Shown here: positions 12,001-46,096 of the stretch, piece by piece | Layout of the letters: every line of letters starts with the position of its first letter | Position numbering within the stretch: the stretch's first letter is position 1 | Source: Synechococcus sp. CBW1002 | Lineage (GTDB): Bacteria > Cyanobacteriota > Cyanobacteriia > PCC-6307 > Cyanobiaceae | Length of the DNA: 64,000 nt | Direction of reading: 5' to 3' | NCBI RefSeq assembly: GCF_015840915.1 | Contig: NZ_CP060398.1 | Coordinates: 3,658,001 to 3,722,000 of the forward strand | Translations under genes and position numbers: made by a program | Notes under the pieces: generated by a model | The model's database searches: none | Seen by the model: the letters and a program-made list of their open reading frames with translations, nothing else | Told to the model about the DNA's origin: nothing

Positions 12001-13611
12001 GTGGATTCTTTCTTGCCTGCCGTTGCTTCAGGCTCGGTGGCCCCCGAGACCGAGCTAGGTCCAGGTCCGCCATCGCCCGTCGATCACCTTGAGAGCAGAC
12101 CACCGCGGCGATTGCTCCTCGGGCTGGCGGTCTGGCTGATCTGCCTCCTCGCCCTCGCCCCACTGATCGGCCTTGTCCAGTTCGCCTTCTCCGGCGCTGC
12201 CGCGCAGCCTCTGGATCTGGGGCCCGGCGGCCTGTTGCAGCTGGGTAACACCCTGACCCTGCTGCTGCTGGTCGGTGTGATCGGCGCCGTTCTCGGCACC
12301 ACCACCGGATGGCTCACGGCCAGTTGCAGCTTCCCAGGACGGCGCTGGCTTGCCATTGCCCAACTGTTGCCCCTGGCTACTCCGGCCTACCTGCTGGCCG
12401 CCACCCTGGTGGATCTGGGCAGCCGCAACGGTTTGCGCGTGCATGGCCTGGCCTGGTCTGTGCTGGTGCTCACCTTGAGCACATACAGCTACGTCTTCCT
12501 GCTCGGCAGCGAGAGTTTTGCCGTGAGTGGACGCCGCCAGATCGAGGCGGCCCGCAGCCTTGGCGTGGGCCCCTGGGGCAGCTTTCGCCGGGTGGCCCTG
12601 CCAATGGCCCTGCCATCGATCGGGGCAGGCATCGCCCTGAGCGGCATGGAGGTCGTCAATGAGCTGGGAGCCGTGGAACTGCTCGGCGTTCCCACCCTCT
12701 CGGTGGGGATCCTGCAACGCTGGCAGAACGATGGTGATCCGCAGGGCGCCGTGGGGCTGGCCCTTGCCGCTCTGGTGATCGTGAGTGTGCTGGTCGGAGC
12801 CGAGCGGCAGCTCCGCCACCGCAGCCGTCGCTGGGGGATGGGCTCGCCGGGAGACCGGCTGCAGCCCTGGCCCCTGAGCGGCTGGCGGGCCGCTCTGGCC
12901 CAGGTGATCACCCTGTCGCCCCCCCTGCTGGCACTGGGATTTCCCCTGCTCTGGGCCGTGTCGAGCTGGGATCAGATGCACGGCGAATCGATCCAAGACC
13001 TGATCGCCCTGACCCTGCGCAGCTTCGCTCTGGCCCTGCTGGCGGCGCTGCTCACGGTCGCAGCTGGCCTGGTGCTGGCCATCTCCAAACGCTGGATTCC
13101 CCAGGTGCTGCTGCGCCGGATCACCTTTCTGGCCGGCATGGGCTACGCCGTGCCGGGGGCCGTGCTGGCCCTGGCCCTGATGCTGCTGGGCGGGCCCTGG
13201 GCCTTGAGTCCCCTGTTGCTGCTGGTCTGGGGCTATGCCGATCGCTTTCTGGCGGTGGCCAAGGGTGGACTGGATGCGGGGCTTGAGCGCATTCCCCCCA
13301 GTGTCGATGAGGCTGCCACCGGCCTGGGATGCAGTTGGCTCAAGGTGCTGCAGCGGGTCCACCTGCCGCTGCTGCGTGGTCCACTGCTGGTGGGAGCTCT
13401 GCTGGTGTTTGTCGACACCGTGAAGGAACTGCCTCTCACCTTCGCGTTACGCCCCTTCGATTTCGACACCCTCTCGGTGCGGGTGTATCAGTACGCCAGC
13501 GATGAACGGGTGGGGGCAGCCCTGGTACCGGCCCTGCTGATCCTGCTGCTCGGGCTGGCGGCAGCCATGGCCCTGGTCCCCACCCTGGAACGGCAGCGGG
13601 GTCCGCACTAA
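12001..13611 (+). CDS. futB: Ferric-iron ABC transporter permease FutB
   Basis: 536 residues from a GTG start; no in-frame ATG occurs before the membrane domain. It has two tandem six-helix BPD_transp_1 modules. EAA-type loops are seen in EAARSLGVGPWGSFRRVALP (first half) and DEAATGLGCSWLKVLQRVHL (second half), which contact the ATPase. The fused two-module form is characteristic of FbpB/FutB iron permeases. It lies just downstream of futA. Its stop overlaps the stop of a convergent small Cys-rich gene by 2 bp. Confidence 0.93.
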   Translation: MDSFLPAVASGSVAPETELGPGPPSPVDHLESRPPRRLLLGLAVWLICLLALAPLIGLVQFAFSGAAAQPLDLGPGGLLQLGNTLTLLLLVGVIGAVLGTTTGWLTASCSFPGRRWLAIAQLLPLATPAYLLAATLVDLGSRNGLRVHGLAWSVLVLTLSTYSYVFLLGSESFAVSGRRQIEAARSLGVGPWGSFRRVALPMALPSIGAGIALSGMEVVNELGAVELLGVPTLSVGILQRWQNDGDPQGAVGLALAALVIVSVLVGAERQLRHRSRRWGMGSPGDRLQPWPLSGWRAALAQVITLSPPLLALGFPLLWAVSSWDQMHGESIQDLIALTLRSFALALLAALLTVAAGLVLAISKRWIPQVLLRRITFLAGMGYAVPGAVLALALMLLGGPWALSPLLLLVWGYADRFLAVAKGGLDAGLERIPPSVDEAATGLGCSWLKVLQRVHLPLLRGPLLVGALLVFVDTVKELPLTFALRPFDFDTLSVRVYQYASDERVGAALVPALLILLLGLAAAMALVPTLERQRGPH

Positions 13612-33431: not shown

Positions 33432-34217
33432 TCACGTCGCAGACACCGCTGCGGACGCTGCGGCGTCCAGTTGTCGCAGGCTGCGAGCCAGCTCTTCGCG
33501 CAGCTCCAGGAAGCGCGGCGTGACGCGCAGATGGGCGAGATCCCTGCGGTCCAGATCAGCCTCCACCGTCTGAACAAGCCGTCCGGGTCGGGGCGCCATG
33601 ATGTGAACCCGCTGGGCCAGCAGCAGGGCCTCTTCCAGATCGTGAGTGATCAGGAGAGCCGTCAGGCCGGTGCGCCGCCAGAGATCGTGCAGGAACTCCT
33701 GCATCGACTCACGAATCTGCAGGTCCAGGGCACCGAACGGTTCATCCAGCAAGAGCACCTTGGGGTCTGCCGCCAGGGCCCTGGCAATAGCAACACGCTG
33801 CTGCATGCCCCCCGAAAGTTCGCGCGGCAGCCTGCGGGCCGCATCGGCCAGTCCCACCACCTCCAGAAAATATGCGGTGCGCTCCTTGACTTCCGAGGCC
33901 GGCAGCCCCTGTAACCGCATGCCGAAAGCCACATTGGCAGCGGCACTCATCCAGGGATAGAGGCTGTACTTCTGGAACACCATGCCGCGGTCGTGACCGG
34001 GCCCCCGCACCGGCTGCCCATCCACAAGAATCCTGCCGGTGCTGGCAGGCTCGAGACCTGCCACCAGCCGCATCATGGTGGATTTTCCTGAGCCTGAGCT
34101 GCCCACCAGGGCCACGAATTCACCGGAATGAAGATCAAAAGAGATGTTGTCCAGCACAAGCTTGGCGGCTGATCCGTGACCGAACCACTTGCTGACGCCG
34201 CAGACCGAGAGATGCAT
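33432..34217 (-). CDS. ABC importer ATPase of guanidine operon (SsuB/TauB family)
   Basis: 261 residues. Walker A GSSGSGKST (about 39-47), Q-loop VFQKYSLYPW, signature LSGGMQQR, Walker B LLLDEPF, D-loop and switch LLITHDLEE are all intact. It pairs with the permease and binding lipoprotein encoded upstream. The family covers nitrate, sulfonate and taurine importers. The operon context points to guanidine, as for the equivalent transporter beside the Synechocystis guanidine hydrolase gene. It is the last gene of the riboswitch-controlled operon; I see no strong terminator after it. Confidence 0.9.
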   Translation of the reverse strand: MHLSVCGVSKWFGHGSAAKLVLDNISFDLHSGEFVALVGSSGSGKSTMMRLVAGLEPASTGRILVDGQPVRGPGHDRGMVFQKYSLYPWMSAAANVAFGMRLQGLPASEVKERTAYFLEVVGLADAARRLPRELSGGMQQRVAIARALAADPKVLLLDEPFGALDLQIRESMQEFLHDLWRRTGLTALLITHDLEEALLLAQRVHIMAPRPGRLVQTVEADLDRRDLAHLRVTPRFLELREELARSLRQLDAAASAAVSAT

Positions 34218-34244
34218 GGGGAAAGAGACGATGCAGCGAAAGGT

Positions 34245-35024
34245 TCAGTTCGCCCAGGCACAGGAGCGTTTCATGACAAAGCGAAAGCCGAGATCGATTG
34301 CAAGACCGATCAGGCCGATGACAATGAGACCAACGAAGATCTCATCCGTTCGCAGAAAGCGCTGGGCCAGGCTAATGCGTTTTCCAAGGCCTTCGTTCGC
34401 CGCAACCAATTCGGCCACGATCACGAGGTTCCAGGCTGCCGCCATATTGATGCGATAAGAATCGAGAACCTGAGGTGCAATGCAGGGCGTCACCACCTTC
34501 AGAAGGATCTGACTGGATCTTCCCCCCAGGGTGCGCGCCGTTTCAATTAGCTCGATTGGAACGAACTTCACAGCATCCATGATCATCAGGGTATTGAAGA
34601 ACAGGGTGCCAATAAAGATCAACAGGATTTTGGGTAACTCACCCAGGCCGAAGTAGATAATCAGCAACGGAATGAAGGCCGGCGCCGGCATGTATCGGAT
34701 CAGTCCCAGCAATGGCTCCAGCAACTGGCAGATCACCCGGCTGCTGCCCATGGCGATCCCCAGGGGCAGGGCCACGATTGCCGAAAGTGCAAATCCGCCG
34801 ATCACCCGCCCAATACTGGCCATGGCATCGTTGAACAGGATGCCCTCGCGAGCCTGAGCGGAACCGGCCGCCCACACCGCAGCAGGGCTTGGCAGAAACA
34901 AGGGATCCACCACGCCGCTGGAAGCGATCAGATACCAAGCCAGCAGAACCACCAGGAGACCGGAGACTCCGAGAAGCCAGGGTTGATCAAGGGCCCGTTG
35001 GATGCGGCGCAGTGGGGTGCTCAT
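34245..35024 (-). CDS. ABC importer permease of guanidine operon
   Basis: 259 residues with six predicted membrane helices. It begins with an N-terminal helix (WLLGVSGLLVVLLAWYLIAS) and has a SsuC/TauC-type EAA loop (ELIETARTLGGRSSQILLKV). It lies 27 bp upstream of the ATPase start and 29 bp downstream of the binding protein stop. One permease gene implies a homodimeric channel. Substrate is inferred to be guanidine or a related guanidinium compound from the operon. Confidence 0.9.
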   Translation of the reverse strand: MSTPLRRIQRALDQPWLLGVSGLLVVLLAWYLIASSGVVDPLFLPSPAAVWAAGSAQAREGILFNDAMASIGRVIGGFALSAIVALPLGIAMGSSRVICQLLEPLLGLIRYMPAPAFIPLLIIYFGLGELPKILLIFIGTLFFNTLMIMDAVKFVPIELIETARTLGGRSSQILLKVVTPCIAPQVLDSYRINMAAAWNLVIVAELVAANEGLGKRISLAQRFLRTDEIFVGLIVIGLIGLAIDLGFRFVMKRSCAWAN

Positions 35025-35053
35025 CGCGTCAGCGGCGGTTGGGGGAGAGGACG

Positions 35054-36097
35054 TCAGGGAGTGGCGTCGACAAACCTGGAGTCGAGCAGTCCGTCGAGCT
35101 TGGGAGGCGTCTTGGCCAAGCCCACCTCCTGGAGGAAGAGGCTGATCTGGTCTGCCGCGAAGGGAAGAGAGGCCATCGTGTTGCCGGGCTTGAAGGCCTC
35201 CCGGTTCTGCTCCAGGGTGAGAATCGTGGTTCCGGCGTCGTAGGCCTTGTACTCCTCTTCGCTCACACCGGCACGCTTGGCCAGAATCGCCAGCGTGGGT
35301 CCGGGTTCCGCCTTCATCGTGGCAAGCGTGGCAAACCAGGCATCGACGATTTTCTGGACCTTCTCAGGATTTTTTGCCACGAACTCCGTGCGGCAGACCA
35401 GATGGTCGCTGATGGCGCCAGGGAAGTCCTTGGAGGAGAACAGGGTGGTGCTGCCCTCACGCTTGAGGGCCTGGGTCGTGAAAGGAGCAAAGACACCGAC
35501 CGCGTCCACCTGGCCGGCGACAAAGGCTGCGGCGGCGGCACCGGTTTCCAGAGGAACAAAGGTGATGTCGCTGGAGGAAAGGCCCGCCTTCTTGAGGCCG
35601 AGAAGCAGCAGATAGTGATCGACGGTGCCCTCCTCCGCGGCTACCTTCCTGCCCTTGAGATCGGCCACGCTGGTGATGCCTGGAGCCACGATGATCTGAT
35701 CGTTGCCCGTTGAGTTGTCGTTGGTGAGCACCACCTGCAGATCGGCGCCACCAGCGATCGAACTGATCGTGTCACCGAGCGTCTGGCTGTTGCAATCGAG
35801 CTGGCCGGCATTCAGCGCGTTGATCGAGTCGAGATACCCGTCGAACCACTGCAGCGTCACGGGCACACCGGCGGCGGTGAACAACCCCTTCTCATCCGTC
35901 ACCTGCCAGGGAATCCAACCCGGCCAAGCGCTGAAGCCGATCCGAACAGGCACCTCGGTACCGGTGGGCTTCTGGCAAGCCGCCAGCAGGCCGCTGCCAA
36001 GCGCAGCCATCAGGATCAAGGACAGACTAAGGAGGCGCCCCCTGCGGGCACCGCGACCAGCAGAGCTGTGGGGGCGAAGTGGGAAACGAAGACGCAT
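35054..36097 (-). CDS. ABC importer substrate-binding lipoprotein of guanidine operon
   Basis: 347 residues. The signal ends in the lipobox LLAAC near residue 41, so the protein is membrane-anchored in the periplasm. The NMT1/TauA-like fold is seen in VRIGFSAWPGWIPWQVTDEKGLF and in GRKVAAEEGTVDHYLL. Acidic and aromatic residues lining such a pocket would suit a guanidinium cation, but I cannot model them. A 143-bp gap separates it from the GS-like gene upstream, so it could also have its own promoter. Confidence 0.9.
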   Translation of the reverse strand: MRLRFPLRPHSSAGRGARRGRLLSLSLILMAALGSGLLAACQKPTGTEVPVRIGFSAWPGWIPWQVTDEKGLFTAAGVPVTLQWFDGYLDSINALNAGQLDCNSQTLGDTISSIAGGADLQVVLTNDNSTGNDQIIVAPGITSVADLKGRKVAAEEGTVDHYLLLLGLKKAGLSSSDITFVPLETGAAAAAFVAGQVDAVGVFAPFTTQALKREGSTTLFSSKDFPGAISDHLVCRTEFVAKNPEKVQKIVDAWFATLATMKAEPGPTLAILAKRAGVSEEEYKAYDAGTTILTLEQNREAFKPGNTMASLPFAADQISLFLQEVGLAKTPPKLDGLLDSRFVDATP

Positions 36098-36240: not shown

Positions 36241-37629
36241 TCAGAAGAACTCGAGATAGCGCTGCCGTTCCCACTCGGAAATGGAACCGTGATAATCGGC
36301 CCATTCCTGACGTTTGTAGGTCACAAAGGCGTCGAACATGGCATCACCGAATACAGAGCGGCATAATGGATCGGCTGCAAAAGAATCAATCGCTTCCTCC
36401 AAGGTCCTTGGCAGCAGGGTCAGGCCTCGACGCTGCCGTTCTTCTGGGCTGAGGGTGTAGGCGTTGTCGAGGTTGGGTGGGCCAGGATCGAGCTGCTTTC
36501 GGATTCCCTCCAGCCCTGCCGCCAGCATCAGTGCCGATCCCAGATAGGGATTGCAGGAGATATCTGCAGCGCGGCATTCCAGCCGCGATCCCGCCGATGG
36601 AATCCGCAGCATATTGGTGCGATTGTTGTTGCCATAGCTGATGAACACCGGCGCCCAGGTGAAGCCCGACATGCTCCCCTGCATCACCAACCGCTTGTAG
36701 CTGTTCACAGTGGGGGCGATCACCGCACAGATCGCAGGCGCATGGCGCAGTACGCCGGCGATGAACTGACGGGCCAGCTGGCTGATGCCACCATCCTCAC
36801 CAGCCTCCGGCGCGAACAGATTGCTGCCGCTGTTCAGATCCGCCAGCGACATATTGTAGTGGGCGCCGCTACCGGTTCGGTTCGCGAACGGCTTCGGCAT
36901 GAAGCTGGCGATCAGGCCATGGCGCTGGGCGATCTCCTTGGCCATCAGGCGAAAGAAGATCAGCCGATCCGCCATGGTGAGCACATCGGCATAGGCGAAA
37001 TCCACCTCGAACTGGCCATTGCCATCTTCGTGATCGAAGGAGTACACGCCCCAGCCGAGGCTGTTCATGGCCTGCACCAGCTCATCGAGCCAGTCGAGGT
37101 TGTCGAGCAGGCCGATCAGGTCGTAGCAGGGTTTATCGAGGGTGTCTCGGTGGCTGGCAGGTTCCAGGGTGCCGTCCGCACTGCGGCGCAGCACAAAGAA
37201 CTCCGTTTCAATGCCCAGCTGAAAGCGAAACCCCATCGCCGCAGCCTGCTGACGCACGCGGCCCAGGATCGAACGGCTGCAGGCCTCGAAGGGTTGGCCA
37301 TGCAGATGCAGATCACTGGCCAGCCAGGCCACATCAGGCCGCCAGGGCAACACCGTGGTGCTGGCAGGATCAGGAATGGCAGCCACTTCATCGTCGCTGA
37401 CGTCCTGAGGCACACCATCCAGGGCGGCTCCGGTGAACAGCTCCGATCCCGCCAGCATGTCGGGGAGATGGTCGATCGGCACCGCCTTGGCCTTGCCGAT
37501 CCCGTGCAGATCCACGAAGCTCGCCAGGGCGTAGCGAACCCCACGCCGCTGCAGGTGGTCCCGCAGGGCGGCAGGATCGCTGGGAAGCGAGCCAGGGGTG
37601 GCCTGGGGCTGGGTCAATGACGACACCAT
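36241..37629 (-). CDS. Glutamine-synthetase-like enzyme (GlnT/GMAS-like) inside guanidine operon
   Basis: 462 residues from the ATG that shares one base with the hypB stop (TGATG). GS-fold motifs are LASFVDLHGIGKAKAVP (beta-grasp domain), GIETEFFVLRR (metal-binding Glu), DHEDGNGQFEVDF, GSGAHYNMSL (ATP/His) and NNNRTNMLRIP (Arg for glutamate/phosphate). The NGQFE variant is seen in GlnT/gamma-glutamylmethylamide synthetase-like proteins rather than classical GlnA. It may condense glutamate with ammonia from guanidine, or with guanidine or another amine. The tight coupling between hypB and the transporter shows a functional link. A paralogue lies at 44.9-46.1 kb. Confidence 0.85.
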   Translation of the reverse strand: MVSSLTQPQATPGSLPSDPAALRDHLQRRGVRYALASFVDLHGIGKAKAVPIDHLPDMLAGSELFTGAALDGVPQDVSDDEVAAIPDPASTTVLPWRPDVAWLASDLHLHGQPFEACSRSILGRVRQQAAAMGFRFQLGIETEFFVLRRSADGTLEPASHRDTLDKPCYDLIGLLDNLDWLDELVQAMNSLGWGVYSFDHEDGNGQFEVDFAYADVLTMADRLIFFRLMAKEIAQRHGLIASFMPKPFANRTGSGAHYNMSLADLNSGSNLFAPEAGEDGGISQLARQFIAGVLRHAPAICAVIAPTVNSYKRLVMQGSMSGFTWAPVFISYGNNNRTNMLRIPSAGSRLECRAADISCNPYLGSALMLAAGLEGIRKQLDPGPPNLDNAYTLSPEERQRRGLTLLPRTLEEAIDSFAADPLCRSVFGDAMFDAFVTYKRQEWADYHGSISEWERQRYLEFF

Positions 37630-38372
37630 CAAGCCCCCACGAGTGCGGCGGCACTGGCCTGATCGGACCGCACCCTGGGAGAGAGGGTTGTGGATGAGGT
37701 TGTGGCATCGCGTTGCCGTTGCAGCCAGTCGTGCCAGGCAGCGAAGCCGATGCCACTGATGGCCGAGAGCTGGAAGACGTCCGCGCGGGGATTGACCTGA
37801 TGGATATGGGCTTCGATCCGCTCCACGTCCACAGGCAGATAGGGCAACAGATCCACCTTGGTGATCAACACACAATCCGCTTCGCGGAACATCACCGGAT
37901 ACTTGAGCGGTTTGTCATCGCCTTCGGTGACACTGAGCAGGGCCACCTTGCGGTGCTCGCCCACCTCGAATTCAGCCGGGCAGACCAGATTGCCCACGTT
38001 CTCCACCCAGAGCAGATCCAGATCAGCCGGGTCAAGGCGCTGACGCAGCAGCGTTAAACCTCCACTCACCATCGCCGCATCCAGATGGCAGGCGCGGCCG
38101 GTGGTGATCGGCACCACAGGCACACCCACCGCCTCCAGTCGCTCAGCGTCGAGCTGGGTGGTCATGTCACCCTCCAGCACGGCCATCTGCCAGCGGCTGG
38201 CCAGATCGGCGAGGCTGCGCTCCAGCAAGGCGGTCTTGCCGGCACCGGGGCTGCTCATCACGTTGAGGCACAGCAGATTCCAGGCGTCAAAATGGGCGCG
38301 GTTGTGCTCCGCCTGGTGCTGATTGGCAGCCAACAGGTTGAGTCCAAGGCTGTCCTCAAGGGGCATGTGCAT
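37629..38372 (-). CDS. hypB: HypB-like nickel-chaperone GTPase of guanidine operon
   Basis: About 247 residues from the ATG at 38372; a second ATG is at 38366. Walker A reads [12 protein letters not shown], then [13 protein letters not shown], the metal-site motif [16 protein letters not shown] and the base motif TKVD in place of NKxD. The N-terminal Cys/His-rich nickel-storage extension of classical HypB is absent. It is a dedicated paralogue next to the guanidine hydrolase, matching the Synechocystis arrangement where HypA/HypB paralogues are needed for nickel loading. A 159-bp gap follows hypA; no structure in it is convincing. Confidence 0.9.
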
Positions 38373-38531: not shown

Positions 38532-38999
38532 TCAGGCCACAGGGCAGGGCTCCGGCACGATCGCTTCGGCCTGTTGCCGAGGGCTTGACCGCAGGCTTGG
38601 GCTGGCCGTGCCGTCAGGAGCTGATTGGGCTGGATCAGCCGCATCAGGGAAGCCGTAATCGATGGAGCGGATCTTCAGTTCCCGACCACTGAGGATCTCC
38701 TCCATCGGGTGGTTGCAGCAGGGGGACTGGTAGGCCTGCTGCGGATTCGGGCTGTAGGTGGCCTGGCAGACCACACAGCGTGCCTGCAGGGGAATGCGCT
38801 CGATCCGTAACTCTGAGCCCGCCAACCACGTCGTCTGCACCACCGCGGCATAGGTGAACCTCAGGGCATCCGGCTCGACGCAGGTGAAATCACCCACCTG
38901 AAGATGCACCACCTCAACCACAGGAACGCGGGGAGCGTGCTGAAGCTTCCACTCCTGCAGCGAGAGCAACAGGCACTTGGTCATATCGACTTCATGCAT
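38532..38999 (-). CDS. hypA: HypA-like nickel-delivery protein of guanidine operon
   Basis: 155 residues. The N-terminus MHEVDMTK keeps the MHE nickel site of HypA (His2, Glu3). The zinc motif is CVVC followed 17 residues later by CC in SPCCNHP. The C-terminal 40 residues (about 115-155, Ala/Pro/Ser-rich) are an extension beyond ordinary HypA, which ends near 115 residues. The start is 3 bp downstream of the guanidine hydrolase stop, so the two are coupled. It should deliver Ni2+ to the hydrolase with HypB. Confidence 0.9.
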   Translation of the reverse strand: MHEVDMTKCLLLSLQEWKLQHAPRVPVVEVVHLQVGDFTCVEPDALRFTYAAVVQTTWLAGSELRIERIPLQARCVVCQATYSPNPQQAYQSPCCNHPMEEILSGRELKIRSIDYGFPDAADPAQSAPDGTASPSLRSSPRQQAEAIVPEPCPVA

Positions 39000-39002
39000 G
39001 GC

Positions 39003-40211
39003 TCACCTCCAGGCCTGATCCACATGCATGTTGCAGTCCGGGGAGATCCAGGTTGGCTTCTCGCGGCGTGGCAACTGACCACTCACCACCAGGTGAGCCA
39101 TGGTGTCGCAGATCACCCGGGTGGCCATCAGGGAGGTCATGTCGCTGATGTCATAGGGAGGGGAGACTTCAACGATTTCAAGGCCGCAGACCGGCACATT
39201 GCGCACGATCAGTTCGAGCAGTTTCAGGGCCTCGCGAGGCAGCAAGCCACCGGGCTCCGGCCAGCCTGTGCCGGGCACGAAGCCGGCATCGATGCAATCA
39301 ATGTCGAAGGAGATGTAGACACAGTCCGTGCCGTCAGTGGCCCGCTCGATCGCAAACTTGGCCGCCGCCTCGAGCCCCATCTCGGTGATGTCGGTGACGG
39401 TGAGCACATTGGTGCCGCGCTCACGGCAGACCTTCACGCCTTCCCGAGGCACCTGCCAGCCACCGATACCGAGCTGCACCAGGTTCTTGGCCGGGGCATT
39501 GGCCATGTTGGTGGCATGAAACCAGGGGCAGGTATGCATCCGCTCATCCAGATCGATCTCCTGCGTATCGACATGGCGATCGAAATGGATGATGCCCACT
39601 TTCTTGTCGCCCAGATGGCGGCAGACACCACGCACGGTCGGGAAGCCGATTGAATGATCGCCACCGAGGATGATCGGGAAGGCGCCACTGGCAAAGACGT
39701 GGGCAACGCCCTTGGAGATCTGATCGAAGCTTTTCTCGTTGTTGGCGGGAATGGTGAAGATGTCACCCACGTCGCAGAGCTTGATCGACTCGCGCAGATC
39801 CACCCCCATTTCGTAGTTGTAGGGGGTGTAGAGGGCCGAAATGCGGCGGATGCCCTGCGGACCGAAGCGGGTTCCGGGGCGGTAGGTGGTGCCCGAGTCG
39901 TGCGGCACTCCCACGATCGCCACATCGAACTCACCTACCCGGTGGACGTCCTCCAGGTAAGGAGCCTTCATGAAGGTATTGATGCCCGCAAAATGGGGCA
40001 GCTCACCGCGCGAGAAGGTGGAGATGCGCCGATCGACGATGCTCTCGGCCGCCTCAAGACCCCAGGCGTGGGCCTGATCCACTTCCATCTGCCAGCCCGT
40101 CAGCGGCAGGGCCGCTTCCTTCTCTAGAGCCTGGCGCCCTTGCATGCCCAAAGATGGATTGCCGCCGGAGCGCCGGTCAAAGGCAGCGCTGGCGCCACTG
40201 GAATCAGTCAT
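39003..40211 (-). CDS. gdmH: Ni-dependent guanidine hydrolase (GdmH-type ureohydrolase)
   Basis: 402 residues from the ATG at 40211. It is a ureohydrolase (arginase/agmatinase) fold: GGDHSIGFP (about 181-189), HFDRHVDTQ, with Arg where most family members have Ala, and SFDIDCIDAGFVPGTGWPEPGG in two overlapping motifs carrying the last metal ligands. An N-terminal extension of about 90 residues is as in Synechocystis Sll1077, the Ni2+-dependent guanidine hydrolase that gives urea and ammonia. Three facts support guanidine over agmatine: the GWPEPGG variant, adjacent hypA/hypB, and a guanidine-I riboswitch directly upstream. Activity itself is inferred. Confidence 0.92.
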   Translation of the reverse strand: MTDSSGASAAFDRRSGGNPSLGMQGRQALEKEAALPLTGWQMEVDQAHAWGLEAAESIVDRRISTFSRGELPHFAGINTFMKAPYLEDVHRVGEFDVAIVGVPHDSGTTYRPGTRFGPQGIRRISALYTPYNYEMGVDLRESIKLCDVGDIFTIPANNEKSFDQISKGVAHVFASGAFPIILGGDHSIGFPTVRGVCRHLGDKKVGIIHFDRHVDTQEIDLDERMHTCPWFHATNMANAPAKNLVQLGIGGWQVPREGVKVCRERGTNVLTVTDITEMGLEAAAKFAIERATDGTDCVYISFDIDCIDAGFVPGTGWPEPGGLLPREALKLLELIVRNVPVCGLEIVEVSPPYDISDMTSLMATRVICDTMAHLVVSGQLPRREKPTWISPDCNMHVDQAWR

Positions 40212-40225
40212 GGCACGGGAGTGAT

Positions 40226-40362
40226 TGGGCGTTGCGGTCTCCCGGGCTTTTCTCCCTCCGTGCCGCCGCCGGTGGCGTTCTCCCAGGGGACAACAGCACC
40301 AGCGGTGAACCCCTCTCGGACCAGTCATCCCTGAAAAGGGATCGGAACCCTAGGGGCATCTT
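40226..40362 (-). promoter_or_regulatory. Guanidine-I (ykkC) riboswitch
   Basis: Reading the minus strand from 40362, the ykkC consensus blocks appear in order: CTAGGGTTCCG, a short hairpin (ATCCC-TTTTCA-GGGAT), ACTGGTCCGAGAGG, a variable GC-rich arm, GGAGAAAAGCCCGGGAGA. These are the hallmark conserved segments of the guanidine-I aptamer. The last block ends about 27 nt before the gdmH ATG. There is no U-rich terminator after it, so control is more likely translational or through processing. Ligand binding should turn on the downstream operon. Confidence 0.93.
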
Positions 40363-40775
40363 CCGCAGATTCATCGTGACCGAGGTCGTCGACCGGCAAG
40401 GTTCGTTTCGCTACCGAGTGGTGTCGATCGTCAAGGATCACGAAGGCTGTGAAATCGGGGTTTTCCCCTGTTCTGGGCAGTTTTCCCCCATTTTCCGGGG
40501 TTTTTCCACAGGTTTCCGCGTGAGACGCAGCCATTGATGGCCGATCCGTAGGCGACTTGGGGGAAAGGCCCCACCCCTTGACCGCTGGCCCCTCGGAGCT
40601 CCCCATTCGCAGGTCTGGCCAACCGGTGAGGGGCCAGGCGGAAGGTCCCTCTCCATACCGGAGTGCAACGGATGCAAAAAACCCCCAGGACCGGATGGAG
40701 GGCCCTGGGGTTGTTGGTCGGAGTCACCGGCTGAAGCGGTGGATCCATCCTGTCATCAGCGGCAACGCTGCGGAA
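40363..40775. other. Intergenic region with TTTTCCACA/TTTTCCCC repeats and a terminator
   Basis: 413 bp. Between about 40455 and 40515 several T4C-type words recur (GTTTTCCCC, GTTTTCCCCC, TTTTCCGGGG) and one exact TTTTCCACA (40502-40510). The promoter for the guanidine operon should be near 40363-40450. A terminator for the DUF4912 gene lies at 40676-40712. I see no gene here. Confidence 0.5.
40676..40712 (-). terminator. Rho-independent terminator of DUF4912 gene
   Basis: On the minus strand: CCCCAGGG, loop of 13 nt, CCTGGGGG followed by TTTTTT. Stem of 8 bp or more with a clean T-run. It lies 64 bp beyond the DUF4912 stop codon. Confidence 0.85.
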
Positions 40776-42617: not shown

Positions 42618-42806
42618 GCACAGAAGGATGGGAGGTTCAGTCTGAACCCGCCAGCCGTTCTCCTGTCGACACGATGATGGGCTCAGCCTGCCTGTTCGAG
42701 CGTGCCCACCCGCGCCGGCCAACCGTTCCCGAGCGAATCTCCGACCCTTGGCAGCACGCCGGGGATGGCTCCATCGGCCCTGCCCCCCGACCCCCCCGCT
42801 GGTGAG

Positions 42807-43754
42807 ATGGCCGCCGAGCCTGGCGATCAGCCGTTGCTGCTGAGCAGTGAGCAGCTCGCCGTCTTCAATCGCCGCCGCAATGACGAGGGCTGGGCTCAGC
42901 TGATCGGCCATCTCACCCTGCTGGGGCTGGGCGCGGCGCTGTGGATCACACCAACCGCCCTGATCCCCGCTGCTTCGCCACCGCTGCTTCTGGTGGTGAA
43001 GCTGGTAGGGGTGCTGCTGCTGGGCTGGGCCCTGGCCTTCGGCTTCTGCGCCATGCATGAATGCGGCCATCGCACCGCCTTCGCCAGCCGTTCGATCAAC
43101 GATACGGTGGCCTGGTGGATGGGCGTTCTGAGCTTCTACAACGCTGATTTCTACCGCCGCTATCACCAGTGGCACCACCGCTTCACCCACCAGATCGGGC
43201 TGGATCCGGAGCTGGAGGACGCACCACCGAGCACCCTGCCGGCCTACCTGCTGGAGCTGAGCGGACTGCCCTGGTGGCTCGGCAAGATTCAGGGCCATTG
43301 GCGCGCGCTCCGGGGCGACTTCGCAGGCGCCCCCTACATCCCCCCGGAGGCCACCGCCGCGGTCGCCCGTTCGGTGCGCCTCCAATTTGCGGTCTACGCC
43401 GCTGTTCTGTTGGTCTCGATTCCGCTGGGTAGGCCGCTGCTGCTGTTCGACTGGCTCCTGCCTCTGGCGGTGGGCCAGCCGCTGCTGCGGTTTGTGCTCC
43501 TCGCCGAACACGGGGGCTGCAGCACCAGCGCCGATGGGTTGCGCAATACCCGCACCACCCTCACCCTGGCGCCGCTGCGCTGGCTGATGTGGAACATGCC
43601 GTTCCATACGGAACACCATCTCTACCCTTCCCTTCCTTTCCACGCCCTGCCCCAGGCCCACGACCAGCTGGCCCCCCAACTGGTCCATTGCTCCCCGGGT
43701 TATCTGGCGGTGCATCGCGGCTTCCTGGGCAACCTGGCGGCTCTGGCCCTGTGA
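42807..43754 (+). CDS. Membrane fatty-acid desaturase / carotenoid hydroxylase-like di-iron enzyme
   Basis: About 315 residues from the ATG at 42807; ATG 42765 or an earlier start would add residues. Three His boxes are intact: HECGHR, HQWHHRFTH and HTEHHLYP, with membrane helices between. This matches the FA_desaturase superfamily, which includes acyl-lipid desaturases, ketolases and hydroxylases. The substrate cannot be decided. The stop overlaps the next gene's GTG start by two bases (GTGA), so the pair is co-transcribed. That partner is an alpha/beta hydrolase, perhaps acting on the same lipid or ester. Confidence 0.88.
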   Translation: MAAEPGDQPLLLSSEQLAVFNRRRNDEGWAQLIGHLTLLGLGAALWITPTALIPAASPPLLLVVKLVGVLLLGWALAFGFCAMHECGHRTAFASRSINDTVAWWMGVLSFYNADFYRRYHQWHHRFTHQIGLDPELEDAPPSTLPAYLLELSGLPWWLGKIQGHWRALRGDFAGAPYIPPEATAAVARSVRLQFAVYAAVLLVSIPLGRPLLLFDWLLPLAVGQPLLRFVLLAEHGGCSTSADGLRNTRTTLTLAPLRWLMWNMPFHTEHHLYPSLPFHALPQAHDQLAPQLVHCSPGYLAVHRGFLGNLAALAL

Positions 43755-44791
43755 GCAGCGGCGACCCGGGCAGCAACCTCGATCAAACCTTCGAGCTCGG
43801 TGATGTTTCGCTGGCCTGCGGCCGCATCCTTCCCCAGGCCCAGCTGCGCTACCGGGTCTACGGAACCCTGGCCGCTGATCGCTCCAATCTGGTGCTCTAT
43901 CCCAGTTCCTACGGAGCCCGGCCAGACGACATCGACTGGGTGGTGGGACCGATCCTCGACCCCGAGCACTGGTGCATCGTGCTGGTGAACCAGTTCGGCA
44001 ACGGCGTGTCGAGCAGTCCCAGCAACAGCGACCTCGGCTTGCCGGAGAACGGCTGGTTGCTGGATCACCGCGACAACCTGCGGGCCCAGGTGCGGTTGCT
44101 GGAAGAGGTGTTCAAGGTGGAGCGACCGGCCCTGGTCTACGGCTGGTCGATGGGGGCCCAGCAGGCCTATCACTGGGGAGTGCTGGAACCGCAGCGGGCT
44201 CAGCGCCTCTGCTGTCTCTGTGGCACAGCCCGCACCACCCCCCACAATCGTCTCTTCCTGCTCAGCCTGCGCCAGGCTCTCACCGCTGATCCCTGCTGGA
44301 ACGGCACGGGCTTTGAGGGGGTTCCAGAGGCGGGGCTGCGCACCTTTGCACTGATCTATGCCAGCTGGGCCGCCAGCCAGCCCTTCTACCGGGCGGAGCC
44401 CTACCGGCGGCAGGGCTACGCCAGCGTGGAGGAGTACGTGGAGCAGGCCTGGTTGCCGGCCTACCGGCGCCACGATCCCCACGACCTGCTCACCATGCTG
44501 GATGTGTGGCTGGCCAACGACGTGGCCGCCGCGGCAGGTTGCGGCGATGATCTCGCGGCAGCCCTGGGCCGGATCACGGCCGACACCCTGGTGATGGCCG
44601 GCAGTCACGACCTCTATTTCACGCCGGACGACTGTGCCGCCGAGGCCCGCCTGATCCCCGGGGCGCAGTTCCGCCGGATCGAGTCGGTGCTGGGCCACCG
44701 GGCCGGAAACCCGCGCGATGCTCCGGAGGTGCAGGCCGTGATCCGAGCGGCACTGGACACGCTGCTCGCCGACGCGCTGACGAACGACTGA
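43751..44791 (+). CDS. Alpha/beta hydrolase, homoserine-O-acetyltransferase-like
   Basis: 346 residues from a GTG that overlaps the desaturase stop. Nucleophile elbow GWSMGAQQAYHW (Ser), oxyanion region VNQFGNGVSSSPSN, acid SHDLYF (Asp) and C-terminal GHRAGNP (His) form a triad. The fold is closest to MetX-type acyltransferases, but the family includes many esterases, so the acceptor is uncertain. MetX proper would usually keep a homoserine-binding pattern I cannot confirm. Co-transcription with the desaturase is likely. Confidence 0.8.
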   Translation: MSSGDPGSNLDQTFELGDVSLACGRILPQAQLRYRVYGTLAADRSNLVLYPSSYGARPDDIDWVVGPILDPEHWCIVLVNQFGNGVSSSPSNSDLGLPENGWLLDHRDNLRAQVRLLEEVFKVERPALVYGWSMGAQQAYHWGVLEPQRAQRLCCLCGTARTTPHNRLFLLSLRQALTADPCWNGTGFEGVPEAGLRTFALIYASWAASQPFYRAEPYRRQGYASVEEYVEQAWLPAYRRHDPHDLLTMLDVWLANDVAAAAGCGDDLAAALGRITADTLVMAGSHDLYFTPDDCAAEARLIPGAQFRRIESVLGHRAGNPRDAPEVQAVIRAALDTLLADALTND

Positions 44792-44854
44792 TCCCCGTTC
44801 GCATTTCTCCACTCACCCCGACTTCGACCCACCTCTTCACCGTTGAGCCCCCGC

Positions 44855-46096
44855 ATGACCGACCTGGCTCGCTACGCCGCCGACCACAACCTGCGTCATG
44901 TCCTGTTCTCCTTCTGCGATCTGTTCGGGGTGCAACGGGCCAAGCTGGTGCCGGCCACGGCGGCGGCGGCGATGGCCGACAGCGGTGCCGGCTTCGCGGG
45001 CTTTGCTGCCTGGCTGCACATGAGCCCGGCCGATCCGGATGTGCTGGCCATCCCGGATCCCGCCAGCTTGATGGTGCTGCCCTGGCAGCCGACTGTGGCC
45101 TGGGTCGCCACCGATCTGGTGGTGGAGGGAATCCCGCTGGAGCAATCGCCACGGCGGGTGCTGCAGCGCCAGCTGGAACGGGCGGCGGCCCAGGGTCTGC
45201 ATTTCCGCACCGGCGTGGAACCTGAGTTCTTCCTGCTCGACCCGGAACGGGGAGTGATCGCCGATCGCCACGATCAGCAGAGCAAACCCTGCTACGACCA
45301 ACTTGCCCTGATGCGCAACTATCCGCTGATCAGTGAACTGCTCGATGGCATGGAAACCCTGGGCTGGGGCCCGTACCAGGCCGACCACGAAGATGCCAAC
45401 GGTCAGTTCGAGATCAACTGGACCTTCGCCGATGCCCTGATCACGGCGGACCGCCACGCCTTCTTCCGAGTGATGGCCCAGGCGGTGGCGGAGCGCTACG
45501 GCCGCTGGGTGAGCTTCGCCCCCAAGCCGGTCGCCGAGCTCACCGGCAACGGTGCCCATCTCCATTGCTCCCTCTGGGACGATCAGGGTCGCAACCTGTT
45601 CCACGATGGTGCGGGGCCCCTGGGCCTGTCGAAGCTGGCGTATCACTTTCTGGGCGGGTTGCTGGCCCATGCGCCCGCCCTCTGCGCCCTCACCAATCCC
45701 ATCTCTGCCAGCTATCGGCGGCTGGCCCGCACCAACACCGCCTCCGGCTCCAACTGGTCGCCGGGCTGGATCAGCTACGGCGGCAACAACCGCACCCACA
45801 TGGTGCGGATTCCAGACGATCAACGGCTGGAGCTGCGCCTGCCCGATGGTGCCGCCAATCCATATCTGCTGCAGGCCGGGGCGCTGGCCGCCGGCCTGGA
45901 TGGCATCGCGCGCCAGCTCGATCCCGGCCCGCGCAGCGATGCCGACACCGATGCCACCCCACCGTCCGCCGATCAGGCGGCACGCCTGCCATCCAGCCTG
46001 GCCGAAGCCCGTGATGCCTTCCGGCAGGACAGGATCCTGCGTGAGGCGCTCGGTGAAGCGTTCTGCACGGCGTACGAGGCCCTGCAACCGGCCTGA
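44855..46096 (+). CDS. Glutamine-synthetase-like enzyme, paralogue of the guanidine-operon copy
   Basis: About 413 residues from the ATG at 44855; a TTG at 44843 is also open. Motifs are FSFCDLFGVQRAKLVP, VEPEFFLLD, DHEDANGQFEINW, GNGAHLHCSL and NNRTHMVRIPDDQRLELRLP. It aligns throughout with the GS-like protein at 36.2-37.6 kb (for example AIPDPAS..VLPW.P.VAW.A.DL), so the two are paralogues. Its neighbours are a hydrolase and a secreted protein, not the guanidine genes, and no riboswitch is seen. A glutamate-amine ligase activity such as gamma-glutamylamide synthesis is possible; true ammonia assimilation is less likely. Confidence 0.85.
   Translation: MTDLARYAADHNLRHVLFSFCDLFGVQRAKLVPATAAAAMADSGAGFAGFAAWLHMSPADPDVLAIPDPASLMVLPWQPTVAWVATDLVVEGIPLEQSPRRVLQRQLERAAAQGLHFRTGVEPEFFLLDPERGVIADRHDQQSKPCYDQLALMRNYPLISELLDGMETLGWGPYQADHEDANGQFEINWTFADALITADRHAFFRVMAQAVAERYGRWVSFAPKPVAELTGNGAHLHCSLWDDQGRNLFHDGAGPLGLSKLAYHFLGGLLAHAPALCALTNPISASYRRLARTNTASGSNWSPGWISYGGNNRTHMVRIPDDQRLELRLPDGAANPYLLQAGALAAGLDGIARQLDPGPRSDADTDATPPSADQAARLPSSLAEARDAFRQDRILREALGEAFCTAYEALQPA

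Follow-up and report, generated by a model that had tools for sequence, protein, structure and literature searches.

The window analysed here, a stretch of 64,000 nucleotides from Synechococcus sp. CBW1002 (contig NZ_CP060398.1, positions 3,658,001 to 3,722,000), carries a run of genes for guanidine metabolism, all on the minus strand. A guanidine-I (ykkC) riboswitch aptamer comes first (40237..40364; Rfam RF00442, 84.5 bits for a gathering score of 63); it is the single match to this model in the 3.85-Mb one-contig genome (E 0.001). About 25 nt downstream starts a gdmH-like gene of the arginase family (39003..40211, 402 aa; PF00491, 265 bits), whose naming as a guanidine hydrolase rests on the operon, the riboswitch and the literature on sll1077. 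It is followed by genes for a hypA-like nickel chaperone (GhaA; 38532..38999; PF01155, 88 bits; TIGR00100, 82.3 bits, slightly below the cut-off of 88.1) and a hypB-like nickel chaperone GTPase (GhaB; 37629..38372; TIGR00073, 278 bits, cut-off 121). Next stands the gene of interest, coding for P0001, a glutamine synthetase (GS)-like protein of 462 aa (36241..37629). The series closes with an ABC transporter (three genes, 33432-36097), made of a substrate-binding protein of the SsuA/NMT1 family (35054..36097; TIGR01728, 221 bits, and PF09084), a permease (34245..35024; PF00528) and an ATPase (33432..34217; PF00005), which is likely a guanidine importer. The P0001 frame is intact, from its ATG at 37629 to its stop at 36241, with zero internal stops. 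The TGA of hypB and the ATG of P0001 have one A in common, exactly the one-base overlap given in a preliminary description of this DNA, which had placed the gene between hypB and the transporter. The gene belongs to the guanidine-riboswitch operon, with a joint transcript predicted from spacing and strand. A simple pattern scan returned 2 promoter-like sites (1.5 in shuffled sequences), both on the opposite strand, and 3 terminator-like sites (4.5 in shuffles), two of them within coding sequence (the ATPase gene and hypB) and one upstream of the riboswitch; the gaps between genes contain none. The genome also encodes a urease, so that guanidine could give three ammonia molecules.

This layout recalls the Synechocystis cluster sll1077-1082, which codes for a guanidinase, two nickel proteins and an ABC transporter (GdmH, GhaA, GhaB and the importer). 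Riboswitch, gdmH, hypA, hypB and transporter are common to both. By contrast, the excerpted descriptions of sll1077-1082 list no GS-like gene, in agreement with the preliminary description. Marine Synechococcus and Prochlorococcus have a guanidinase cluster named eCAG, with gdmH (speB2), hypA, hypB, ABC genes and a riboswitch; it differs by an extra Rieske gene, and the word 'glutamine' is absent from the main text of that work (PMC10119275). More generally, a GS-like gene in guanidine operons is not mentioned in the excerpts of PMC12186494, PMC11410670, PMC8390497, PMC8400943, PMC10119275, PMC10094980, PMC12930504, PMC8632094, PMC11018352, PMC11399263 or PMC11271267, an earlier mention elsewhere being possible.

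To which kind of enzyme does P0001 belong? It passes the NCBIfam model TIGR03105, 'type III glutamate--ammonia ligase' (579.9 bits, cut-off 469.6), a model that also captures the GS2/GlnT type. It fails the GlnA model TIGR00653 (331 bits, cut-off 429). It also fails the model of the gamma-glutamylputrescine synthetase PuuA, NF045547 (277 bits where 650 are needed), and PuuA was rejected on this score. The nearest entry in the Protein Data Bank, by sequence and by fold, is 9qur, MmGmaS from Methylovorus mays; together with RhGmaS from Rhodovulum (7cql) it is 41-42% identical to P0001. An AlphaFold model of P0001 (mean pLDDT 81.8, pTM 0.87) matched 9qur in Foldseek with a TM score of 0.89 and 42% identity, confirming the GmaS fold; this model gives no pocket geometry, since it contains a single chain, while the site is shared between subunits, and since the flap at 315-323 has a pLDDT below 50. 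Among the four picocyanobacterial orthologs compared, dN ranges from 0.15 to 0.21 for a dS of 0.79 to 0.95, a mark of purifying selection.

The available portion of the structural work on GmaS (PMC7948447) states that the GS ammonium residue Asp50' is replaced there (Ala48'), as is the Glu-flap glutamate (Trp300). Catalysis relies on Asp177, Glu186 and Arg312, and the amine pocket comprises Tyr147, Gln175, Asp177, Glu179, Glu186, Asn188 and Lys30'. In alignment, both ammonium positions are changed in P0001 as well, Asp50' to Thr66 and the Glu-flap glutamate to Trp325. The GmaS catalytic set is retained (Arg312 = R337, Asp177 = D199, Glu186 = E208, Lys30' = K48), as are the pocket residues Tyr147 and Glu179 (Tyr169 and Glu201). 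The missing ammonium residues and the GlnA score rule out an ordinary housekeeping GS, so that the expectation of a GmaS-like relative, not a GlnA, holds. Since both ammonium residues are lost, ammonia would be a poor candidate substrate; capture of ammonia, suggested earlier as a possible role, appears disfavoured on these residues, and the NCBIfam name is probably wrong for the proteins grouped with P0001. The earlier assignment to a GlnT/gamma-glutamylamide branch, made from the motif NGQFE, is to be split. The motif is present (residues 204-208) and the relative is GmaS-like; however, NGQFE is common to GmaS and GlnT and hence not diagnostic, and the branch label is too coarse, as the protein falls in a clade of its own beside GmaS/GlnT.

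In a tree of 82 proteins, 44 of the P0001 type form one clade (SH-aLRT 100) on a stem of 1.02 changes per site. It stands apart both from the group of MmGmaS and proteobacterial GlnT and from that of RhGmaS and cyanobacterial GS2. This was a quick IQ-TREE run with SH-aLRT as sole support, no bootstrap; it included 14 of the 38 proteins of the window's group (defined below), with PuuA, IpuC and AtdA1 sequences left out (one row, L192, belongs to context A, also below). IQ-TREE issued a long-branch warning, which makes the deeper branching order unsure. The phylogeny against GmaS and GlnT thus places P0001 beside them, with full support for its own clade, not inside the characterised GmaS clades. 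Proteobacterial GlnT (glnT-glxBCD-amt) is similar in being of TIGR03105 type and about 42-45% identical; it differs in its place in the tree, where both sampled proteins join MmGmaS in a clade of four rows (support 99), and in the Gln/Asn pocket of these two. Pocket residues and tree together rule out GmaS proper. What remains is a new clade of GS-fold gamma-glutamyl ligases, with an activity predicted from sequence.

The signature of this clade lies in the amine pocket. Two methylamine-pocket residues of GmaS are altered in P0001, Gln175 to Ser197 and Asn188 to Asp210. This pair occurs in 68 of 68 clade members (38 of the window's group; from a second order, 8 and 11 in the two contexts with a riboswitch and 10 in a third one; 1 other) and in none of 36 GmaS/GlnT-like proteins, which always have Gln and Asn. 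Phe211, Phe323 and Thr66 are likewise invariant across the 68 members, together with Asp199, Glu208, Lys48 and Tyr169; Arg337, Glu351 and His257 are invariant in the 56 clade proteins tabulated. Ser197 and Asp210 are therefore a simple marker for re-annotating the clade. They would make the pocket roomier and more acidic than the methylamine pocket, and after the swap a bulkier cation than methylammonium may fit, for instance guanidinium or an alkylguanidinium. The residues are nevertheless not specific for guanidine, since paralogs of the third context, which have no riboswitch, have them too; these paralogs differ from the riboswitch-linked proteins by D170A and seven other positions. In sum, the likeness to GmaS (9qur, 7cql) covers the fold, the loss of both ammonium residues and the retained Lys30', Tyr147, Asp177, Glu186 and Arg312. 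The difference lies in Ser197/Asp210, in a clade with a long stem and in the genetic setting, an operon under a guanidine riboswitch where GmaS has a methylamine context.

How steady is the link with guanidine? We used the best 80 of 449 matches to GdmH (82-99% identity), a choice that makes the set lean to close kin. Among these loci the GS-like gene is near full length in 39 (match of at least 380 aa, between hypB and the binding protein) and absent in 35; two more have fragments, and four contigs end too early, one of which (L016) shows the gene start. The nearest relative (L007), counted among the 39, has an in-frame stop in its GS-like copy. The window's group of 38 proteins is P0001 with 37 orthologs, L007 (stop) and L036 (396 aa, contig end) having been dropped. 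Placed on the GdmH tree, presence and absence need a minimum of 9 changes, and well-supported branches force at least 4. The guanidine-I riboswitch lies upstream in 7 of the 7 GS-bearing picocyanobacterial loci scanned. One operon with the GS-like gene is that of Synechococcus sp. WH 5701 (L009). Some operons are visibly decaying: a deletion fuses hypB into the permease in L034 (around 12100-12300), and C-terminal GS-like remnants are seen in L014 and L070.

Whole genomes tell a similar story. In 151 genomes of the family, the GS-like gene (at least 75% identity) is found in 31 and gdmH in 53. The gene lies 1072-1446 bases from gdmH in all 31, and the 98 genomes in which gdmH is not matched are all devoid of it (Fisher 3e-18); the anticipated co-conservation with gdmH in picocyanobacteria is thereby observed, in the sense that the GS-like gene never occurs without gdmH. 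The converse does not hold: gdmH lacks this companion in 22 of 53 genomes, which makes the GS-like gene accessory. Co-occurrence alone is a weak argument, confounded by genome type, because the separately located paralog GS2 (P0002, 44843-46096) also tracks gdmH (38 of 44). Physical linkage, not co-occurrence, carries the argument. Relatives of gdmH also appear in 11 plasmid records, and the neighbourhoods of four were inspected: no GS gene lies beside gdmH in the three that are annotated (Rhodobacteraceae SC52, Limimaricola, Rubrobacter), the fourth, from S. fredii, being devoid of annotation.

Further evidence comes from a second cyanobacterial order. Among 386 genomes drawn from across the phylum, clade members (at least 66% identity) turned up in 6 from the window's family, CBW1002 being one of them, and in a single genome from another family. 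This last genome belongs to the second order, of whose 63 genomes 32 have clade members and 48 have gdmH. No gdmH was matched in G502, G513 and G525, three of the 32; the contig of G502 stops within the operon, and G513 displays the third context. The contexts described here cover 24 of the 32 genomes, with G514, G521, G522, G523, G525, G529, G539 and G554 outside. In context A (8 loci) the order is riboswitch, gdmH, hypA, GS, hypB, substrate-binding protein, permease, ATPase; one locus (L239) ends before gdmH, another (L213) has two genes inserted after gdmH, and the riboswitch was found in 7 of 7 scanned. In context B, seen in one genus, the GS-like gene comes first: riboswitch, GS, substrate-binding protein, permease, ATPase, Rieske oxygenase. 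It has its own guanidine-I riboswitch at 8 of 8 loci scanned, and gdmH is located elsewhere in all 8 genomes. Seven gdmH loci of this genus (L225-L230 and L234), six of them from context B genomes, read gdmH-hypA-hypB with no transporter in the stretch. All 5 that were scanned (the set without L228 and L234) have a riboswitch; among those from context B genomes, where it is a second riboswitch, the figure is 4 of 4. In five of these loci (L225, L226, L227, L229, L230) the opposite strand carries the nitrogen-stress RNA NsiR1, some 1 kb upstream of the gdmH riboswitch. Context C (9 loci and one cut-off contig, L240, placed by similarity) is of another kind: a GATase-GS pair beside a divergent GS2 and an Fe-alcohol dehydrogenase, with an aldehyde dehydrogenase where the stretch reaches, and no riboswitch in the 10 scanned. 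Its nine loci (L206, L208, L209, L211, L212, L214, L216, L223, L238) resemble a gamma-glutamyl route for an amino alcohol or a similar amine. One locus, L218, reads Rieske-GS-permease with no riboswitch at gathering score, and in some genomes of the order a copy in context C is accompanied by another in A or B.

The position of the gene thus differs by order, between hypB and the binding protein in the window's family, between hypA and hypB in the second order; the gene has stayed with the guanidine genes despite rearrangement and is found again behind a second riboswitch, which rules out chance embedding. The gene has riboswitch control of its own, is regularly accompanied by the transporter in A and B, and has changed place inside the operon, all of which indicates that the enzyme belongs to guanidine physiology. 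We conclude that the link between the GS-like gene and guanidine is functional, in spite of frequent losses of the gene.

We propose that P0001 is an ATP-dependent gamma-glutamyl ligase of GS fold, dedicated to the guanidine regulon and acting on guanidine or an alkylguanidine, and we give this reading a probability of about 0.45. ATP and Mg would serve to phosphorylate the gamma-carboxyl of glutamate, with E141, E143, E201, E208, H257, E351, R337 and R353 as the predicted residues for metal and phosphate. The second substrate would be a small cationic nitrogen compound entering with the guanidine regulon, guanidine as first candidate, an N-alkylguanidine as second. Y169 and D199 would hold this cation together with S197 and D210, the two residues specific to the clade; deprotonated by D199, it would attack the acyl phosphate, yielding a gamma-glutamyl conjugate. 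Gamma-glutamylguanidine as product is compatible with the residues found, and the preliminary description had also thought of it; a full-text literature search returned no mention of this compound or its name variants. Compared with guanidinium, the conjugate would have a lower basicity and toxicity; it would be retained in the cell and could be open to hydrolysis, giving glutamate or glutamine plus urea. Guanidinium, with a pKa of about 13.6, is a poor nucleophile. Against this ligase reading stand the pocket residues shared with context C, the lack of co-variation in GdmH and the dispensability of the gene, which 35 of the 80 loci lack.

An extension of this scheme, rather improbable in our opinion, is that the ligase makes gamma-L-glutamylguanidine and that GdmH, a ureohydrolase, cleaves it to L-glutamine and urea, so that guanidine nitrogen would enter glutamine without free ammonia. 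The balance would be Glu + ATP + guanidine + H2O -> Gln + urea + ADP + Pi, at the ATP cost of glutamine synthetase. If true, it would bypass the stability of guanidinium and the weak kinetics of GdmH on free guanidine: the accessible part of PMC8390497 gives, for His-tagged Synechocystis GdmH, a Km of 5.3 mM and a kcat of 0.04 per s, the tag costing about 2.5-fold. No GdmH position separates GS-bearing from GS-less operons at a frequency difference of 0.6 (39 versus 19 loci, 16 GS-less Prochlorococcus loci, L071-L086, being left out), which speaks against a specialised GdmH.

Less likely than guanidine ligation, yet ahead of its other competitors, is a GmaS-like gamma-glutamylalkylamide synthetase for methylamine, ethylamine or another amine, guanidine being the inducer only. 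The nearest structures are indeed GmaS proteins, whose catalytic residues are all kept, and the amine could be imported or come from alkylguanidines: the part of PMC11399263 at hand describes GdmH relatives of other bacteria that hydrolyse dimethylguanidine, so that amines may arise in this way. On the other hand, the two methylamine-pocket residues that are invariant in the 36 GmaS/GlnT-like proteins are always changed in this clade, and family-profile matches in the operon include no N-methylglutamate genes. Moreover, a comammox guanidinase gave no detectable urea from methylguanidine, a result called consistent with cyanobacterial work in the excerpted PMC11410670.

Unlikely, and slightly more so, is a divergent glutamine synthetase, induced by guanidine, whose task would be to take up the ammonia that GdmH and urease set free. 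The three NH3 per guanidine from these two enzymes and the NCBIfam name would suit it, as would the presence of urease in 52 of 53 gdmH genomes (also in 55 of 98 without gdmH). Canonical GlnA is absent from 12 of the 31 GS-bearing genomes and low-scoring in 2, versus absent from 3 of the 22 gdmH genomes without the GS-like gene (Fisher p 0.019 counting the two low-scoring genomes, 0.065 without them), a pattern that mildly favours this role. Yet GlnA keeps its full score in 17 of the 31 and its pattern clusters by genus; both ammonium residues are missing, as in GmaS; an eLife paper, in the part available, has none of the organic-amine members compared reported to convert ammonium. The CBW1002 genome, besides, encodes a protein (L005) that we take to be GlnN-like, at variance with a need for P0001 in this function. 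The sole GlnA-type match (TIGR00653) in that genome (G000:C1:3149883-3151232; L001 1489-2898, minus strand) reaches 505 bits, where full-length relatives have about 620-670; a genome of the same genus, G023, has one of 501 bits. Canonical GlnA proteins carry the metal-ligand motifs HHHAV, PQPEFF and GLPVHQ, which by eye are lacking in the CBW1002 match. With its low score and missing motifs this GlnA looks dead, and the GlnN-like protein, which reaches no family cut-off, may be the working GS of the genome. Finally, it is very improbable that the operon carries P0001 as a passenger or as a regulator without catalytic activity: repeated losses, remnants and the in-frame stop would fit, but the catalytic residues are invariant, dN is well below dS, and the second order places the gene under separate riboswitch control.

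Several neighbours deserve mention. A Rieske oxygenase follows the guanidine transporter in 29 of 33 loci with the GS-like gene and in 22 of 30 without it, among the best 80 of 449 GdmH loci and after dropping those with less than 2500 bases past the transporter; no clear link appears, and a Rieske partner required by the ligase was discarded. The loci with this Rieske gene include L207, L210, L219-L222, L235, L236 and many of L008-L086, and it was noted in guanidine clusters of marine strains in PMC10119275. That it is an alkylguanidine demethylase is a guess. The GoaS group (NpaA1/AtdA1), involved in gamma-glutamylation of arylamines, resembles our case in having a GS-like ligase before a dioxygenase, with no ammonium use reported in the excerpts available. 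P0001 differs by its place in the guanidine regulon. Furthermore, 8wwu, which we take to be NpaA1, is a far weaker match than 9qur (E 4e-45 versus 5e-121). The partner genes of GoaS, for a Rieske oxygenase and a GATase, have no match in the window (tblastn, E 1e-6), at odds with membership in that group; at the same threshold, no GATase was matched in the best 80 of 449 gdm loci.

The plus strand of the window holds, at 42702-46096, a cluster of genes for a desaturase-like protein, an alpha/beta-hydrolase and a second GS-like protein, P0002, of the RhGmaS branch. Of the best 80 of 449 loci, 17 have the hydrolase and GS2 genes as a pair no more than 10 kb away from the gdm operon; in 16 of them the pair is found downstream, on the strand of the operon, and in L007 it is upstream and divergent, as in the window. 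The pair recurs on a Leptolyngbya plasmid, with a desaturase, and on a Nostoc plasmid. The window desaturase matches the guanitoxin enzyme GntB weakly (45.8 bits, cut-off 380).

A review of 2025, as excerpted, gives two routes of guanidine breakdown, by a carboxylase and by the guanidinase. A further type of guanidine-responsive enzyme, present in two orders under two riboswitch arrangements, indicates that hydrolysis is not the sole task of the guanidine regulon. Should guanidine be the compound that the ligase conjugates, the reaction is a new one; should it be an alkylguanidine or an amine, the ligase would reveal the real cargo of these importers.
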